A DNA stretch of 64,000 nucleotides from positions 124,001 through 188,000 of the forward strand of contig MKUP01000012.1 in assembly GCA_001898625.1 (NCBI GenBank), written 5' to 3'. Source of the stretch: Burkholderiales bacterium 67-32. GTDB taxonomy: Bacteria > Pseudomonadota > Gammaproteobacteria > Burkholderiales > Burkholderiaceae_B. The position numbers and the translations under genes were made by a program. The notes under the pieces were generated by a model. That model was not told the DNA's origin, searched no databases, and saw only the letters and a list, made by a program, of their open reading frames with translations. Of the stretch, positions 8,138 to 16,678 are shown in pieces. Within the stretch, counting starts at the first letter, position 1, and each line of letters opens with the position of its first letter.

Positions 8138-8592
8138 AGCAGGCCTCCCAGCAGGCCGGTGGGCAGCACCACGTCCAGCACCTTGTCGAACAGCAGGAAT
8201 ACGGCCACGCCCAGGACCAGCCCGGTAATGCCCGTCTTGAGCCACGATCCGCCGAACGCGCGGCCCACCGGCAGGCTCATCAGCAAGGTGGCCAGGACGA
8301 TGCCCAGCCACTGGAACAGGAAGGCGTAGGCCGCCAGCGCCACCGACACGGCGACGACACGCCCCTTGACGCCCGCCGCCACGGATTCGACCGGATTGCC
8401 ACCCTTGGCGGCCAGCCACAGGCCGCACAGGCCGATGACCAGCGACAGCAGCATGGGAAAGGCGCGCGGGCCCACCGGCTCGTAGGCGAAAGGCGCCTCG
8501 AGCCCGTAGCCCTGCCACACCATCACGGCGGCGAAAACCAGCGCCGCCGTTCCCAGCAGCCGGTCGTTCAACACGACACGGCCGCCGCTCAT
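8134..8592 (-). CDS. tctB: Tripartite tricarboxylate transporter, small membrane subunit TctB
   Basis: 152 residues with four hydrophobic segments, typical of the poorly conserved TctB subunit. Family-like features are the GPRAFPMLLSLVIGLCGLWL segment near residue 42 and the C-terminal FLLFDKVLDVVLPTGLL. Its ATG overlaps the tctC stop by four bases and its own stop overlaps the tctA GTG, so the three subunits are translationally coupled. Confidence 0.92.
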   Translation of the reverse strand: MSGGRVVLNDRLLGTAALVFAAVMVWQGYGLEAPFAYEPVGPRAFPMLLSLVIGLCGLWLAAKGGNPVESVAAGVKGRVVAVSVALAAYAFLFQWLGIVLATLLMSLPVGRAFGGSWLKTGITGLVLGVAVFLLFDKVLDVVLPTGLLGGLL

Positions 8593-9584
8593 TTGCGCAC
8601 CAGTCCGAATTCGTCGGCCAGTTTGCGGTACTCGGCAACCTGCTGCTTGATGTAGCCGTCCAGGTCCTTGCCGGTCTTATTGAACGGGAACAGGCCGCGT
8701 TCTTCGCGCAACTTCGCGAATTCGGGCGTGGCCATCATCTTGTCGAAGGTACCCACCCACCACTGGTAATCGGCATCGGCGACCTTCGGCCCCACGTAGA
8801 AACCGCGGATGATGGGCCACTGGATGTCGAAGCCCTGCTCCTTGGCGGTGGGTACGTCGGCCAGCCGGCCCGGCAGGCGCTGATCGGCGAACACGGCCAG
8901 GATGCGGATGGGCACGCCGGCATCCAGCACGGACGCGACCTCGCCGGCGTCGCCCGAATACACCTGCACGTGGCCGCCCTGCAAGGCCGTCAGGGTCTCG
9001 CCACCGCCCTCGAAGGCGACGAAGCGCATGGTCTTGTAGTCGATGCCCGCGGCGCGCGCGGTCAGCGCCGCTTTCATCCAGTCCTGGCTGCCGATGGTGC
9101 CGCCGGCGCCGAACACCACCTTGGTGGGATCGGCCTTGATGGCGGCCATCAGGCTCTTGAGGTCCTTCCAGGGGGCGTCCTTGCGCACCACGACCGCGCC
9201 GTAGTCGGTGCCGATGCCCGACACCCAGCGCACGTCGGATTCGGTATAGCGGCCGAATTTGCCCTGGGCGATGTTCAGCAGCGAACCGCCCGAGAAGGCC
9301 ACGATGGTGCCGGCCTCGGCGGGACGCTGGGCGATGATGGTGTTGTAGGCCACCGCGCCGATGCCCCCCGGCATGTACACGGTGCGCATCGCGCCGTTCA
9401 GGTACTTGCCTTCCTGCAAGCCGCCTTGCGCGATCTTGCAGGTCAGGTCGAAACCGCCGCCGGGCTTGGCCGGAGCGATGCACTCGGGCCGTTCGGGCGC
9501 GGCGGCCGCCGGTTGCGCGGCCAGCCCCGCGAAGACCATGGCCACGGCGCACGCCGCCGCCCGCAGTCGGACTGTGGGTTTCAT
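8589..9584 (-). CDS. tctC: Tripartite tricarboxylate transporter receptor TctC (Bug family)
   Basis: Periplasmic substrate-binding receptor (331 aa) that delivers tricarboxylate to TctAB. It has a cleaved signal peptide (about residues 1-29, ending LAAQPAAAA). The binding region opens with ECIAPAKPGGGFDLTCKIAQ, where the PGGGxD loop is the ligand-contact signature of this branch; MPGGIGAVAYNTI follows. A very strong GGAGGTGACTG ribosome site precedes the ATG. The first gene of the operon is normally activated by TctD in response to substrate, and tctE-tctD lie immediately upstream. Confidence 0.95.
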   Translation of the reverse strand: MKPTVRLRAAACAVAMVFAGLAAQPAAAAPERPECIAPAKPGGGFDLTCKIAQGGLQEGKYLNGAMRTVYMPGGIGAVAYNTIIAQRPAEAGTIVAFSGGSLLNIAQGKFGRYTESDVRWVSGIGTDYGAVVVRKDAPWKDLKSLMAAIKADPTKVVFGAGGTIGSQDWMKAALTARAAGIDYKTMRFVAFEGGGETLTALQGGHVQVYSGDAGEVASVLDAGVPIRILAVFADQRLPGRLADVPTAKEQGFDIQWPIIRGFYVGPKVADADYQWWVGTFDKMMATPEFAKLREERGLFPFNKTGKDLDGYIKQQVAEYRKLADEFGLVRK

Positions 9585-9706
9585 CAGTCACCTCCTTGTC
9601 GTTGTTGTCGATGTCGCGGCTGTCAGGCCGCACCGAGGCGACTGTACGAACGCGGCGCTTTCAACCGGCTTTCAATTCCCCGTGTTTTCGTGCTGCGAAG
9701 CAGCAT

Positions 9707-11149
9707 TCAGGACCTGGGGAAAACCAGGGCCGCGCGCAGGCCGGGCCCCGGTTCCCGGTTTTCCAGCACCAGCCTGCCTTTATGCAGTCCCGCGATCCGC
9801 TGCGCGATGGCCAGTCCCAGGCCGGCGCCAGGCTTGCCCTTGCCGGACTCGCCACGACGGAAACGCACGCCGGCCCGCTCGATGTCGGATACCGGCATGC
9901 CCGGCCCACTGTCCTCCACCCGCAGCACGACCTGCCCGGGCTCGCGCAGCAGCGTCAGCGTCACCATGCCCCCCTCCGGGCTGTAGCGAATGGCATTGTC
10001 CAGGAGATTGAGCACCGCTTCGCGCAGCAACACGGGCAACCCTGGCATCCACAGCGCTTCATCGGGCACCTCGATGCCGTAGTCCAGCTGCTTGGCGCGG
10101 GCGGCCGGCAACAGGCTGCGCACGCATTCTCCAGCCAGGTCGGCCAAGTCGGTCTGCGCGAAAGGCAGGCCGCCCTCGGCCAGCGAGGCGTCATGGACCC
10201 GAGCCAGCGCCAGCATCTGGTTGGCCATCCGTATGGACCGGTCCACGCCCGCATGCATGGCTTGCAAGACCTGCCGGACCGCCTGCGGATCGTTCTCGCG
10301 CTGCGCGAAATCCACCTGGGTCTTGAGCACGGTCAGGGGCGTGCGCAGCTGATGGGAGGCATCGTCCAGGAATTGGCGCTGCGCGCGGGCCTGGGCATCG
10401 TGGCGCGCGATATGCCGATTGATCGCGGATACCAGCGGCTGGACCTCGGCCGGCACCTGGCTGTCGTCCACCGGCCGCAGGTCGTCCGGGTCACGCGCAT
10501 CGATTTCCTCGCTCAGGCGCACCAGCGGCCGCAATGCGATGATCACTCCGCCCGTCAGCAGGATCGCGCTCAACAGGATCTGCAGCGTATCGCGCTCGAT
10601 CGCGCGCATCAGCACGGCCCGGGTGAAACCCGCACGCGACTCGATGCTTTCCGCGACCTGGATGACCACCCGCTGGCGTTCCTGCGCACCATACAGGGGC
10701 GGATCGAGCCGGCGCGCCAGCACACCCACGCGCACGGGTTCGCCGAAATACTCGGCATTGAAGAATTCCGCTCGTCCGGACGCCAGCGCGTGCGCCGGCA
10801 TCGGAAGCGCGGGATTGCCGATCTCGGTCAGGTTGTCCTCGGTGGACACCCGGAAATACACGTTGCCGCTGGCCGTCAATTCGAAGAATTGCAGCAGCCT
10901 GTAGGGCAGTTCCACTGCCAACCCGCCGCTTTCCGTCGATATGTTGAGGTCTATCGCCCGCAGGGCACCGGCCAGCGAACGGTCGTAGGCGGCATTGGTC
11001 AGGTCGTCCAGCAGCCTGACCGACAGCCACAGGCCACCGCCGGCCACCACGGCCAGGACGGGAAGCAGCCACCACAGCAGGGTCGTCTTCAGGCTGCGGC
11101 GCCGTGGCCGGACCGGCAAGGGCGGGGTTCCGGGCGAGGAAGCCGTCAC
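9707..11149 (-). CDS. tctE: Sensor histidine kinase TctE
   Basis: 480-residue membrane kinase. A membrane segment at about 22-45 and another at about 188-206 bracket a periplasmic region of some 140 residues of the TctE sensor type. HAMP-like linker and HisKA domain follow, with phosphorylated H266 in FLDDASHQLRTPL. The ATPase domain has the N box (REAVLNLLDNAIRYS) and G boxes (VEDSGPGMP, GAGLGLAIAQRIAGLH). The start codon is GTG and it overlaps the tctD stop (GTGA). It is the partner of TctD and is predicted to sense external tricarboxylates. Confidence 0.93.
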   Translation of the reverse strand: MTASSPGTPPLPVRPRRRSLKTTLLWWLLPVLAVVAGGGLWLSVRLLDDLTNAAYDRSLAGALRAIDLNISTESGGLAVELPYRLLQFFELTASGNVYFRVSTEDNLTEIGNPALPMPAHALASGRAEFFNAEYFGEPVRVGVLARRLDPPLYGAQERQRVVIQVAESIESRAGFTRAVLMRAIERDTLQILLSAILLTGGVIIALRPLVRLSEEIDARDPDDLRPVDDSQVPAEVQPLVSAINRHIARHDAQARAQRQFLDDASHQLRTPLTVLKTQVDFAQRENDPQAVRQVLQAMHAGVDRSIRMANQMLALARVHDASLAEGGLPFAQTDLADLAGECVRSLLPAARAKQLDYGIEVPDEALWMPGLPVLLREAVLNLLDNAIRYSPEGGMVTLTLLREPGQVVLRVEDSGPGMPVSDIERAGVRFRRGESGKGKPGAGLGLAIAQRIAGLHKGRLVLENREPGPGLRAALVFPRS

Positions 11150-11814
11150 GCGGGCTCCAGGCTGTATCCCAGTCCGCGCAGGGTCACGATATGGACGCCG
11201 GTATCGCCCAGGCGCTTGCGCAGCCGGTGGACGATCACCTCGATGGCGTCCAGCCCGACGTCGCGGTCATCGTCGAATACCCGGTCCAGGATCTGTTGCT
11301 TGGTCATGGGTTCGCCGCTGCGTTGGATCAGGGCACGCAATACGGCGTGTTCCCGTGGCGATAAGGCCAGGGGTTGGTTATCCAGCAGGAATTTCTGAGC
11401 GGCCAGGTCGAAAACCAGCGGACCGCAGGCCAGGCGTGGATGTTCCCTGCCCCGGCTGCGCCGTATCAGCGCCAGCAGCCTGGCTTCCAGTTCGGCCACG
11501 TTGAAGGGCTTGGGCAGGAAATCGTCCGCGCCTTCGTGCAGGGTGGTCACGCGTTCCGTCAGTGAATCACGTGCGGTCAATATCAGGACGGGCGTGCGGT
11601 CGTCACGGGCGCGCAGCCTGGCCAGCAGCGTGCGGCCATCCAGTCCGGGCAGTCCCAGGTCCAGGACGACGGCATCGAATTCCTCGACCTGCAGGCGCTT
11701 TTCGGCGACTACCCCATCGTCGGCCCATTCCACGACGAAACCGGCGTGTCTGGCAAGTGTGCCTGACAGCCATCGAGCAAGTTCGGGTTCGTCCTCGACC
11801 AACAGGATGCGCAT
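11146..11814 (-). CDS. tctD: OmpR-family response regulator TctD
   Basis: 222 aa. The receiver domain carries the acidic pair E7/D8, the phosphorylation site D52 (VVLDLGLPG) and the conserved lysine in FLPKPFNVAELEARL. A C-terminal winged helix follows with LSPREHAVLRAL and VHRLRKRLGDTGVHIVTLRG. It is first in the tctD-tctE pair and predicted to activate tctCBA downstream. The 5' end faces the AT-rich gap that holds the DnaA boxes. Confidence 0.95.
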   Translation of the reverse strand: MRILLVEDEPELARWLSGTLARHAGFVVEWADDGVVAEKRLQVEEFDAVVLDLGLPGLDGRTLLARLRARDDRTPVLILTARDSLTERVTTLHEGADDFLPKPFNVAELEARLLALIRRSRGREHPRLACGPLVFDLAAQKFLLDNQPLALSPREHAVLRALIQRSGEPMTKQQILDRVFDDDRDVGLDAIEVIVHRLRKRLGDTGVHIVTLRGLGYSLEPA

Positions 11815-11940
11815 GGCGTATCGGGTGCTCCGTACTTACTTATAGGGATGGGACGCCTGGATGCTAGGTGTTCGACCCCGCGGGGTCAACCGGCGTCCGC
11901 GTAGCGGCGCCCCGGGCCGCTTGCGGCCCTCGTGGCAGTA

Positions 11941-12197
11941 GGAAAAAAAGATGTTTGAGCTTTATCCCAAAACTATCTATCCAATTCGTAGTAGGTAATA
12001 GGAGCCTGTGGATAACTTCGGCCGTTCAAAAAAACCTTTTCGATTCAATGAATTGCCTAACTTTTAAGCATGTGGATAACCTTGTCCACATGGTGTACCC
12101 GGAAATTGGACAAGTTTTTCGGCCGAAGACGAAAACGAAGTTATCCACAAAGGCTCAACATCGTGTGCACACCCCCGCTTCCTAGAGGTTATCCACA
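11941..12197. other. AT-rich intergenic region with four perfect DnaA boxes (origin-like or DnaA-titration candidate)
   Basis: Within 191 bases lie four exact TTATCCACA 9-mers: minus strand at 12007-12015 and 12071-12079, plus strand at 12141-12149 and 12189-12197. A one-mismatch box TTGTCCACA is at 12082-12090, making a TGTGGA...TCCACA dyad with the second box. AT-rich runs (11942-11949, 12027-12068) contrast sharply with the GC-rich surroundings. No dnaA, dnaN or parAB gene is in the window. The gap 11815-12247 also holds the palindrome GACCCCGCGGGGTC at 11873-11886; short reading frames across it lack family resemblance. Confidence 0.75.
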
Positions 12198-12247
12198 GGC
12201 CCAGGATGCGCGTATCGGGTATTCTGGTCGCCTGCCTGGAGCCGTTC

Positions 12248-13084
12248 ATGGATGTATTCGCCTCTTCCTCCGCCCTGGCCGCATTCGTGGGCCGGCACGA
12301 ACGCCTGTTCGTCCTGACCGGCGCCGGGTGCAGCACGGATTCGGGCATCCCGGACTATCGCGACGCCGATGGCCAATGGAAACGTACGCCGCCCATCGAC
12401 TTCCAGGTCTTTATGCGCGACGATACGGCCCGGGCACGCTACTGGGCGCGCAGCATGATCGGGTGGCGGCGCTTCGGGAAGGCCGGGCCCAACGACACCC
12501 ATCGCGCACTGGCGCGGCTGGAGGCCAGCGGGAGAATGCGGCTGTTGGTCACCCAGAACGTCGATGGCCTGCATCAGGCGGCGGGCAGCCGCGAGGTGGT
12601 GGACCTGCATGGCCGGCTGGACGAGGTTCGCTGCATGCATTGCGCGCATCGCGAACCGCGTGCCGTGTTCCAGCAGCGGCTGGAAGCCGTGAATCCGGCC
12701 TGGATCGCGCTGGACGCGGCCGATGCGCCGGATGGCGACGCCGACCTGGAAGCGGTGGATTTCTCCCTTTTTGCCGTGCCGCCCTGTCCGGCCTGCGGCG
12801 GGATCCTGAAGCCGGACGTCGTCTTCTTCGGTGAACAGGTGCCCGCGACGCGTGTGGCGACAGTGCTGCGCGGGCTGGACGAGGCCGATGCCATCCTGGT
12901 GGTGGGCTCGTCGCTGATGGTGCATTCCGGCTACCGCTACGTACGGGCGGGGGCGCAGGCCGGACTGCCAATCGCTGCGGTCAACCTGGGGCGCACGCGC
13001 GCCGACGACCTGCTGACCCTGAAGGTGGAGCAGTCTTGTGCCGAGGCGCTGGCCTTCATGCTGGCGGACCGCGCGGCGGCGTGA
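12248..13084 (+). CDS. NAD-dependent protein deacylase, Sir2 family (sirtuin)
   Basis: 278 aa. It removes acyl groups from protein lysines using NAD+. Motifs are complete: NAD-binding GAGCSTDSGIPDYR (residues 25-38), TQNVDGLHQAAGS, the catalytic histidine in VDLHGRLDEVRC, a zinc site formed by CMHC and CPAC pairs, the VGSSLMVHSG loop and VNLGRTRADD. The ATG at 12248 has GGAG seven bases upstream. An in-frame ATG at 12206 has no usable ribosome site and would place the start nearly on the last DnaA box. Class resembles bacterial/mitochondrial SIRT4-like proteins (inference). Confidence 0.93.
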   Translation: MDVFASSSALAAFVGRHERLFVLTGAGCSTDSGIPDYRDADGQWKRTPPIDFQVFMRDDTARARYWARSMIGWRRFGKAGPNDTHRALARLEASGRMRLLVTQNVDGLHQAAGSREVVDLHGRLDEVRCMHCAHREPRAVFQQRLEAVNPAWIALDAADAPDGDADLEAVDFSLFAVPPCPACGGILKPDVVFFGEQVPATRVATVLRGLDEADAILVVGSSLMVHSGYRYVRAGAQAGLPIAAVNLGRTRADDLLTLKVEQSCAEALAFMLADRAAA

Positions 13085-13122
13085 GACCGTGAAAAGTTGT
13101 GCCGTGGACCGCTGGCGCCTTG

Positions 13123-14055
13123 CTAGTCCGGCAAGGGGAAGCCCTGCGCCATCGAGTCGCGCAGGTATTCCACGAAGCACTGCACCGCGCGCGGCACACG
13201 CGGCGCCCAGGGGCGCAGCGCATACAACTGGTTGCCGAAGAAACCCTGCACGCGCCAGTCAGGCAATACCGGCCTGAGCCGGCGCATGGCGGGCGCCGCG
13301 CTGAAATCGGGCAGAAGGCCGATGCCCAGTCCATCCAGCACCGCGTCGCGCAGCACCTCGCTGTTGTTGGCCTTCAAGGGGCCCTGCACGGGTACCGACA
13401 GCGTCTCGGCCTGGGCATCGTCGGCGGGGACGAAGGTCCAGGTGTCGGCGCCCGGCCCCAGGTATAGCACGCAGTCGTGGTCCGCCAGGTCGCGCGGATG
13501 CCGGGGCGTGCCGCGCCGGCGCAGATAGGCGGGGCTGGCCACCAGCAGCGAGCGGGTCTCGCACAAGGGCCAGGCGACATAGCTTTCAGGCGCGGCCGCG
13601 GTGTGGCGGATGGCCAGGTCGTAGCCTTCCTGCGCCAGGTTGACGAAGCGGTCGGTCAGGTCGAGATGGATGCGCACCTCGGGATAGTTGCGGAAGAACG
13701 CCGCCAGCCGCGGCGAGACGTGCTGCCGGCCCAGCGCCACGGGAGCGGTGACGCGCACCGTGCCGCGCGGCGTGCCGGACAGGTCCTTGACCGCGGTGAA
13801 GCCGGCGTCGATGCGCTCGAACGCCGGCGCGGCGTCGGCCACCAGTTCCCGCCCGGCCTCGGTCAGCACCACCGAACGCGTCGTGCGCTGGACCAGCGGC
13901 ACGCCAGCCGCGCGCTCCAGCGCGCCTATGCGCATGCTGACCGAGGCCTTGGACAGGCCCAGGCGCCGCGCCGCCTGAGTGAAGCTGCGGGTCTCGGCCA
14001 GCACGGTCAGCAGGTGGATGTCGGCCACCCAGGGCCCGATGATGTCGGCAGCCAT
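13123..14055 (-). CDS. LysR-family transcriptional regulator
   Basis: 310 aa. The N-terminal helix-turn-helix covers about residues 11-70 ([20 protein letters not shown], then [14 protein letters not shown]); the rest is the periplasmic-binding-like effector domain of the CrgA-like branch. It is divergent from mmsA, with about 110 bases between the two genes containing TTGTTCAAGATATTGAACA (14069-14087), a TTCAAN5TTGAA inverted repeat (TTCAAGATATTGAA core) that is a good LysR operator candidate. Control of mmsA and of itself is predicted from this arrangement. Confidence 0.9.
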
Positions 14056-14071
14056 TTTTTTCCGCTCGGAT

Positions 14072-14085
14072 TGTTCAAGATATTG
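14072..14085. promoter_or_regulatory. Candidate LysR operator in the lysR-mmsA divergent region
   Basis: The sequence GTTCAAGATATTGAAC is a near-perfect palindrome (TTCAA / TTGAA arms around GATA) in an otherwise GC-rich intergenic gap. It lies between the divergent starts at 14055 and 14175, where LysR proteins usually bind. Confidence 0.55.
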
Positions 14086-14174
14086 AACACTTTAATCGGC
14101 TTCGGCCGGCTTATCCAATCGGCCGCGCGGGCCTAGACTGGGATCCTCGATTTCTTCTTCTCAGGATGACCGCC

Positions 14175-15683
<1,509 letters not shown>

Positions 15684-15688
15684 AGGAT

Positions 15689-15778
15689 CCCCCCTACGCG
15701 CTTCGCGCGCCCCCCAGGGGGCGATGCGGGTGGACCGGCAAAGCCGGATCCACCGCATCCTGGGTCTGCGTAGGGGGG
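15689..15778. repeat. Dispersed intergenic palindromic repeat, copy B
   Basis: Single copy filling the space between the convergent mmsA and lysR genes. The outer ends are mutually inverted (CCCCCCTACGC at 15689, GCGTAGGGGGG at 15768). Inside are GCGCTTCGCGCGC, CCCCCAGGGGG, and the arms GTGGACCGGC / GCCGGATCCAC. The central 60 bases match copy A almost exactly. No coding content. Confidence 0.8.
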
Positions 15779-16678
15779 TTACCTATTCATCAGGAAGTTG
15801 ACTAATGCGGCGGCGGGGGCCGAGAGGCCCTCGCGCTGCCGGAAGACCACGAAGAGTTCGCGCGCGGCCCAGGGTTCCTCGATGGGAACCAGCGCGAGGT
15901 CCAGCGTGCCCACGTAGAGTTCGCCGCTGTGTTGCGGCACCACCGCGACGCCCAGGCCGACGTGGACCATGCGGCACAGCGCATCCAGGCTGCTGACGCT
16001 GATCTTGACGTGCAGCGTGGCGCCCAGCCGTCCGGCTTCCTTGACCAGCAATTGCGTCAGCGACGTCCCCTGCCCCATGCCGACGATGTTCTCGTCCATG
16101 AAATCGCGCAGGCGCACCACGGGCGCCTTGGCCAGGCGATGGCGGCGCGGCACGGCCAGCACCAGGCGGTCGCTGCGGTAAGGCAGGTGCTCGAGCCGTT
16201 CGATGCCCGGGACCTTGTTGGAGAAGCCCAGGTCGAAGTCGCTTTCGGTCAGGCTGCGCAGCACTTCGCTGCTGGTCTGTTCGTCGATCTGGATGTCCAC
16301 GTCGGGGAACACGCGCTTGAAGGCGGCGATGTCCTCGGGCAGGAACTGCACGATGGACGACATGTTGCCGACGATGCGTATCGTGCCCTTGGCGCCGGTG
16401 GCGTACTGGGACAGCTCGGCTTCCATGCGTTCGATGTCGGCCAGGACTTCCCGCGCGTGGCGGTACACGGCCTCGCCTATGGGGGTGACCGAGATGCCGC
16501 GCGATTCGCGGTGGATGACCGGCTGCCCGATCACGCTTTCGATCTCGGCGATGCGGCGGCTGACGGCCGAGGGCGCGATGGCCTCGCGTTCGGCCGCGCG
16601 CGCGATGTTGCGTTCCTGGCAGACGGCGACGAACAGGCGCAGCGAGGTCAGGTCGAGTTTACGGACGAGGTTGCTCAT
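15779..16678 (-). CDS. LysR-family transcriptional regulator
   Basis: 299 aa. The helix-turn-helix is at about residues 9-66 (LRLFVAVCQERNIARAAERE, then SAVSRRIAEIESVIG), followed by a LysR substrate-binding domain. The ATG at 16678 has AGGAAGG about 8 bases upstream; the open frame extending further is the leuD coding region read in a different frame and was rejected. It lies directly downstream of leuD on the same strand with a 62-base gap, so it may be cotranscribed with leuC-leuD. Confidence 0.9.
   Translation of the reverse strand: MSNLVRKLDLTSLRLFVAVCQERNIARAAEREAIAPSAVSRRIAEIESVIGQPVIHRESRGISVTPIGEAVYRHAREVLADIERMEAELSQYATGAKGTIRIVGNMSSIVQFLPEDIAAFKRVFPDVDIQIDEQTSSEVLRSLTESDFDLGFSNKVPGIERLEHLPYRSDRLVLAVPRRHRLAKAPVVRLRDFMDENIVGMGQGTSLTQLLVKEAGRLGATLHVKISVSSLDALCRMVHVGLGVAVVPQHSGELYVGTLDLALVPIEEPWAARELFVVFRQREGLSAPAAALVNFLMNR

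Follow-up and report, generated by a model that had tools for sequence, protein, structure and literature searches.

The window analysed here is a stretch of 64 kb (C12:124001-188000) on contig C12 (443 kb), which belongs to a 6.66 Mb draft genome of 34 contigs. Between a gene for a response regulator and a gene for a protein deacetylase, it harbors an AT-rich gap with several DnaA boxes. The features of this locus are listed below in window coordinates; the boxes were scored against the 9-mer TTATCCACA.

11050 (C12:135050), no strand: lowest point of the cumulative GC skew (calculated for C12:1-440000), some 1 kb away from the boxes
11146..11814, minus strand: left neighbour, gene for a TctD-like response regulator (NCBIfam TctD model, E=2.6e-74, below the curated cut-off; PF00072, PF00486)
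11941..12006, no strand: AT-rich flank on the mnmG side, by its composition the presumed DNA unwinding element
11955..12206, plus strand: predicted oriC core (family model R1, C12:135955-136206, E=5.1e-48, the core's own sequence being among the model rows)
11989..12001, plus strand: putative DnaA-trio-like repeat TAG-TAG-g-TAA-TAG, as read from the sequence
12007-12015, minus strand: DnaA box 1, outer left, exact match
12071-12079, minus strand: DnaA box 2, inner, exact match
12082-12090, plus strand: DnaA box 3, one mismatch, TTGTCCACA
12106..12119, plus strand: conserved inner element TTGGACAAGTTTTT with six invariant or nearly invariant alignment columns, possibly weak DnaA sites
12141-12149, plus strand: DnaA box 4, inner, exact match
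12164..12171, plus strand: conserved element TGTGCACA with invariant or nearly invariant columns in the family alignment, presumably functional
12189-12197, plus strand: DnaA box 5, outer right, exact match, 182 bp from box 1
12206..13084, plus strand: right neighbour, gene for a Sir2-family NAD-dependent protein deacetylase (NF003738 above the cut-off, E=3.9e-141; PF02146)

The region directly to the left of the predicted origin (8589-11814) comprises a gene for a TctC-type receptor and the genes for the TctD-like response regulator and its sensor kinase.

The initial annotation had described four exact boxes and a one-mismatch box at 12082 within 191 bases of an AT-rich gap in high-GC DNA. 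A pattern search returned all five at the positions claimed, and the box segment had a GC content of 42%, while the surrounding 2-kb windows had 65-68%. The four exact sites and the single copy of TTGTCCACA all fell inside 191 bp, and no further exact TTATCCACA was present in the 64-kb window. Only the orientation had been misread: read 5'->3' as TTATCCACA, the left pair and the right pair of boxes do not point inward but apart.

In 100 shuffled versions of the window, the mean number of exact sites was 0.11 and the maximum was 1. Since the AT-rich gap could by itself favour the 9-mer, the same 257 bp were also simulated with their own composition and dinucleotide statistics (Markov-1, n=200,000). 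Two sites occurred in one of these sequences and three or more in none, in line with the earlier judgement that chance clustering was very unlikely. A genome-wide check for equally dense clusters of exact boxes likewise found none. The 6.66 Mb contained 15 exact TTATCCACA sites, four of them at this locus, as compared with 28 occurrences of the reversed pattern used as a control. Elsewhere no two exact sites were less than 9 kb apart, leaving 12007-12197 as the sole cluster. The box cluster thus exceeds chance and is unique in the chromosome. Box 5 ends 8 bases before the start of the Sir2 open reading frame, and one could suppose that the boxes regulate only the flanking genes. However, the core was kept in the three family genomes G001, G006, and G010, in which the Sir2 gene is megabases away. 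The position of the cluster in the GC skew, described below, also argues against both chance clustering and a role restricted to the flanking genes, and we consider these two readings together to be extremely unlikely.

We located the switch in GC skew by a change-point fit with two means in 1-kb blocks. For contig C12, the one contig of the draft genome on which skew was mapped, the change point was at 135 kb (interval 133-140 kb, window 9000-16000), and the boxes are located at 136.0 kb. The log likelihood (lnL) dropped from the best point by 0.47 at the boxes, 6.1 at mnmG, and 15.56 at dnaA (249 kb), differences that may be too sharp because the 1-kb blocks were treated as independent. The single-contig chromosome of a genome of the same genus (G007) has an orthologous stretch with 94% identity over 1,270 bases. 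Its change point was at 5,885 kb (5,867-5,890 kb) with the first box at 5,886,295; the drop was 1.9 lnL at mnmG, from which the boxes are hardly separated, and 15.8 lnL at dnaA. Sampled 20-kb windows of this chromosome showed positive skew in ten of ten cases between 0 and 2.72 Mb and negative skew in ten of ten cases between 3.0 and 5.72 Mb, and the opposite skew switch therefore lies across the circle. In a genome of another genus (G018), dnaA is 156 kb away from the boxes. The cumulative minimum was at 151,553, and the change point was at 152 kb (151-156 kb); the drop was 1.1 lnL at the boxes (156,038) and 39.2 lnL at dnaA. The skew check suggested by the initial annotation thus found a minimum at the boxes on contig C12 and agreeing change points in the two other genomes, so that cluster and skew switch coincide in three chromosomes from two genera. 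An origin at dnaA was disfavoured by the fit in all three (15.6, 15.8, and 39.2 lnL worse).

Another stretch of the contig, C12:51305-51676 (L037), contains one exact and three one-mismatch boxes within 380 bp. As an origin it was 32.9 lnL worse, and the core profiles did not match it (best E=1.8). It adjoins an open reading frame that resembles hemE by eye. A plasmid origin was rejected as well: no similar DNA was found in 72,556 plasmid records, a set that may lack the records closest to the window's genome, and the locus shares its 443-kb contig with mnmG and dnaA.

The absence of dnaA from the 64 kb, as noted earlier, agrees with its location at C12:249350-250849, 113 kb from the core. The mnmG (gidA) gene is located at C12:120450-122318; it ends 1.7 kb before the start of the window and is 13.6 kb away from the core. 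Beside mnmG there are parS-like sites, one exact and one with one mismatch, at C12:122704 and 122496, assigned by the parS consensus. Genes that indicate an origin are dnaA, dnaN, hemE, gidA, and hemB, as listed in the relevant part of the Ori-Finder report (PMC2275245), which also names gidA among the origin-adjacent genes. Near the predicted core, mnmG is such an indicator gene, while dnaA is not near. The same part of that report counts only 342 of 568 chromosomes with an origin that is adjacent to dnaA and also near the skew switch.

Dense DnaA boxes are not confined to origins. The datA, DARS1, and DARS2 loci of E. coli are non-coding DnaA-box clusters but not origins, and dense boxes occur in such loci. 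The initial annotation had therefore considered a DnaA-titrating or -reactivating site as an alternative, in which case the true origin would be elsewhere, for example at dnaA. A second copy of the core and an exact upstream box at dnaA would fit this reading. The present locus resembles datA and DARS in being a non-coding box cluster and differs from them in that it coincides with the skew switch in three chromosomes, and for this reason the alternative is not favoured. The presence of mnmG and parS-like sites nearby and the conservation of the AT-rich flank also speak against it, and we regard it as very improbable.

We compared the gap in related species, as the initial annotation had proposed, with a set of 61 genomes: 37 of the family (G000-G036, 11 of them of the same genus) and 24 others. 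The outer inverted box pair with a spacing of about 181 bp was present in 25 of the 61 genomes, all within the 37 family genomes. The 29 cores from these 25 genomes shared common box positions, and the left 80 bp had a GC content of 16-47% in all of them. Alignment rows were oriented by the side of mnmG, except for G027 and G009, for which dnaA or homology was used. From the alignment, a sequence-only core model with 28 rows (R1) was built, with G024 left out though it is in the 29-core alignment. At E<=0.001, R1 matched 42 of the 61 genomes. Within the family it hit 35 of 37, and outside the family 7 of 24; G017 and G031 were the two family genomes with no match at this threshold. A profile built without the genus of the window's genome also found its core (C12:135951-136205, E=6.8e-31).

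In 32 of the 33 family genomes with both features on one contig, the best core was located at most 20 kb from mnmG, with a median of 6.7 kb. The exception, counted among the 33, was G033 (481 kb), with a weak and probably spurious match (E=1.5e-4); the 32 include G022, in which the best core is a copy in the gap behind dnaA, 10 kb from mnmG. The distance from the core to dnaA had a median of 25 kb in 30 scorable genomes; the value of 249 kb for G005 is unreliable because dnaA is split over two contigs, and distances in G024 are off by about 0.2 kb. These distances indicate that dnaA and oriC commonly lie apart in the family. Judged from the predicted cores, their separation is usual in the family genomes examined and no peculiarity of this one. 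The core is conserved family-wide near mnmG, at the same place in the relatives.

Two separate neighbouring cores, 0.35 to 4.7 kb apart and away from dnaA, were seen in 14 of the 37 family genomes, nine of them with the loci L106, L105, L113, L114, L096, L098, L144, L149, and L155; one of the paired-core genomes (G027) has mnmG on a different contig. In the window's genome there is a single core near mnmG and not a pair.

In the core, the outer inverted boxes enclose the inner boxes and the conserved elements, and the AT-rich flank is on the left. Box 1 was invariant in the 28-row family alignment, the rows of which were chosen for box 1. Exact matches at the position of box 2 were seen in 8 of the 25 core loci, each belonging to a same-genus genome. 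Within the TTaTC of box 4, the bases T, T, T, and C were invariant or nearly so. The 80 bp to the left of box 1 have a GC content of 41%, and the AT fraction is 0.68 at 11951-12000, so that by composition an AT-rich region lies beside the boxes. On this side the repeat TAG-TAG-g-TAA-TAG is followed by GAGCC and then by box 1. An exact search with the 20-base sequence TTATCCACAGGCTCCTATTA returned 7 contigs, all from Alcaligenaceae, namely six from Pigmentiphaga and one from 'Alcaligenaceae bacterium SAGV5'.

According to the rule given in the relevant section of PMC8287927, a basal unwinding system has a DnaA box with a minimum of three NAN trios no more than 16 bp away. At the present locus, box 1 has TAA-TAG-GAG at a distance of 2 bp, which agrees with the rule but is weak evidence alone. 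A match of three trios near a box is not rare, as the rule is loose and such a match could arise by chance; for this reason, we put more weight on conservation. The trio run of Pigmentiphaga is broken by one base, while uninterrupted runs occur in some other genera, e.g., TAA-TAA-TAA-TAG in G030. With the basal unwinding system of Bacillus subtilis, as outlined in the same section (PMC8287927), the locus shares an arrangement in which a box is followed by a short GC-rich spacer and then by TAG/TAA repeats. It differs in that the box is single and not part of a tandem pair and, in Pigmentiphaga, in trios with a one-base slip. No second box adjoining box 1 was found with a gap of <=3 bp and <=4 mismatches, the best neighbour having 6 mismatches; by its description there, the published basal-unwinding program accepts a sole box too (PMC8287927).

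We concluded that window positions 11941-12206 are, with high confidence, the predicted oriC of the main chromosome of this Pigmentiphaga (Alcaligenaceae). This assignment is based on skew, site uniqueness, family-wide conservation, and architecture. An origin in a genome with displaced dnaA had been one suggestion of the initial annotation, and the skew change point at the boxes, the unique exact cluster, and the family-wide core near mnmG bear it out. By analogy to established oriC biology, DnaA binding, melting, and helicase loading would all take place at this locus. DnaA would bind the five boxes, with its gene acting in trans from 113 kb. A filament of ATP-DnaA may grow from box 1 (12007-12015) onto the DnaA-trio-like repeat and melt the AT-rich flank at 11941-12001. 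DnaB would be loaded at the melted flank, and two forks would depart in opposite directions.

A profile from the cores of other genera (18 rows) gave two significant places in C12:1-440000, the oriC locus and the gap behind dnaA (C12:250895-251073, minus strand, E=5.2e-16). The whole-genome search with R1 returned the same two places only, with the gap copy at C12:250893-251090 (L211). The gap copy shared 55% identity with the oriC core of its own genome, 50% with the copy of G038, and 41% with the copy of G044. The open reading frame next after it resembles dnaN by eye. Just upstream of dnaA, there is a lone exact DnaA box (C12:249226-249234); boxes are found at a comparable position at many of the dnaA loci compared from relatives and possibly serve dnaA autoregulation.

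Both cores could be functional on one chromosome, with the core on the mnmG side being dominant and the copy in the dnaA gap firing or assisting. The gap copy retains the box TTGTCCACA followed by CCTATTAACTAC, and 8 of the 11 genomes of the genus carry such a copy. However, the change-point fit showed no skew change at dnaA, and the gap copy covers only profile positions 91-275, with no AT-rich flank and no exact DnaA box within it. Two working cores are therefore unlikely in our view, and a single working origin at 11941-12206 is preferred.

R1 matched just behind dnaA in 17 of the 61 genomes. Besides the eight of the same genus, these were two further same-genus genomes, each with a short and partial match, one other genome of the family (G022), and six genomes from outside the family (G038, G044, G048, G049, G052, and G059). 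No gap copy was found by R1 in the same-genus genome G010, and none of ten dnaA loci from genomes without an R1 match there had a copy at E<=0.001. The out-of-family matches and that of the family genome G022 were re-tested with separate nhmmer profiles. The copy of G038 was clearly confirmed (E=3e-20; 1.5e-14 when the Pigmentiphaga rows were omitted), and that of G022 gave a moderate match (E=3.6e-6). Matches were weak for G044 and G052 and hardly detectable for G049 (E 0.0046 to 1.1); without Pigmentiphaga rows, these three reached 8.4-9.7 bits, and 500 shuffles of each gave no more than 6.4 bits. The copies of G048 and G059 were not confirmed. In a tree with 59 rows, in which two loci were entered twice, the eight same-genus gap copies formed one clade with a support of 0.994; the branches above had values of 0.06 to 0.78, with which the gap copy may be either an ancestral relic or a later arrival.

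A tentative explanation, which we consider possible but not probable, is that the origin moved by duplication. An ancestral core behind dnaA would have been copied to the mnmG side, where it became the working origin in Alcaligenaceae, often paired there. In Pigmentiphaga, the old copy at dnaA would have survived in trimmed form as a relic, possibly because it binds DnaA close to the dnaA gene. The clear copy behind dnaA in G038, a genome from outside the family, bears on this reading.

The oriC of E. coli (gidA-mioC) is next to mnmG/gidA and tens of kb from dnaA, and it combines an AT-rich flank with several DnaA boxes. By this description, the predicted origin resembles it in its location on the mnmG side, the distant dnaA, the several boxes, and the AT-rich flank, while the box layout is different. 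In the same family, gidA is the first gene after the origin of Bordetella pertussis, as stated in a passage of PMC6321869. The present origin at mnmG is likened to it by this published description and differs by the 13.6 kb between mnmG and the core. Inversions in B. pertussis are consistently offset from dnaA, according to a passage of PMC9584773, a paper that also remarks that origins do not always lie next to dnaA. For Kerstersia gyiorum SWMUKG01, also of the Alcaligenaceae, the relevant part of PMC6461280 gives the coordinates of an oriC predicted by Ori-Finder, a further predicted origin in a member of the family.

An origin away from dnaA and near gidA is thus ordinary in kind, the B. 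pertussis origin having already been placed at gidA in the passage cited (PMC6321869). Less ordinary is the diverged second core behind dnaA, possibly the relic of a moved origin. Our literature search found no published description of an oriC for Pigmentiphaga, although a prediction in a DoriC-type database may exist. In a paper that names both Pigmentiphaga and a replication origin, the origin is that of Kerstersia (PMC6461280). The predicted core would fix the replication origin for the genus Pigmentiphaga. Taking dnaA as the start of the chromosome would misplace the origin by 113 kb here and by 156 kb in G018, and paired cores at the origin and behind dnaA may help in studying the relocation of bacterial origins. 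In some relatives, exact DnaA boxes are numerous around mnmG and dnaA and scattered across stretches of several to tens of kb, among the matches listed at locus L155 and on contigs G013:C23 and G025:C40, in contrast to the window's genome.
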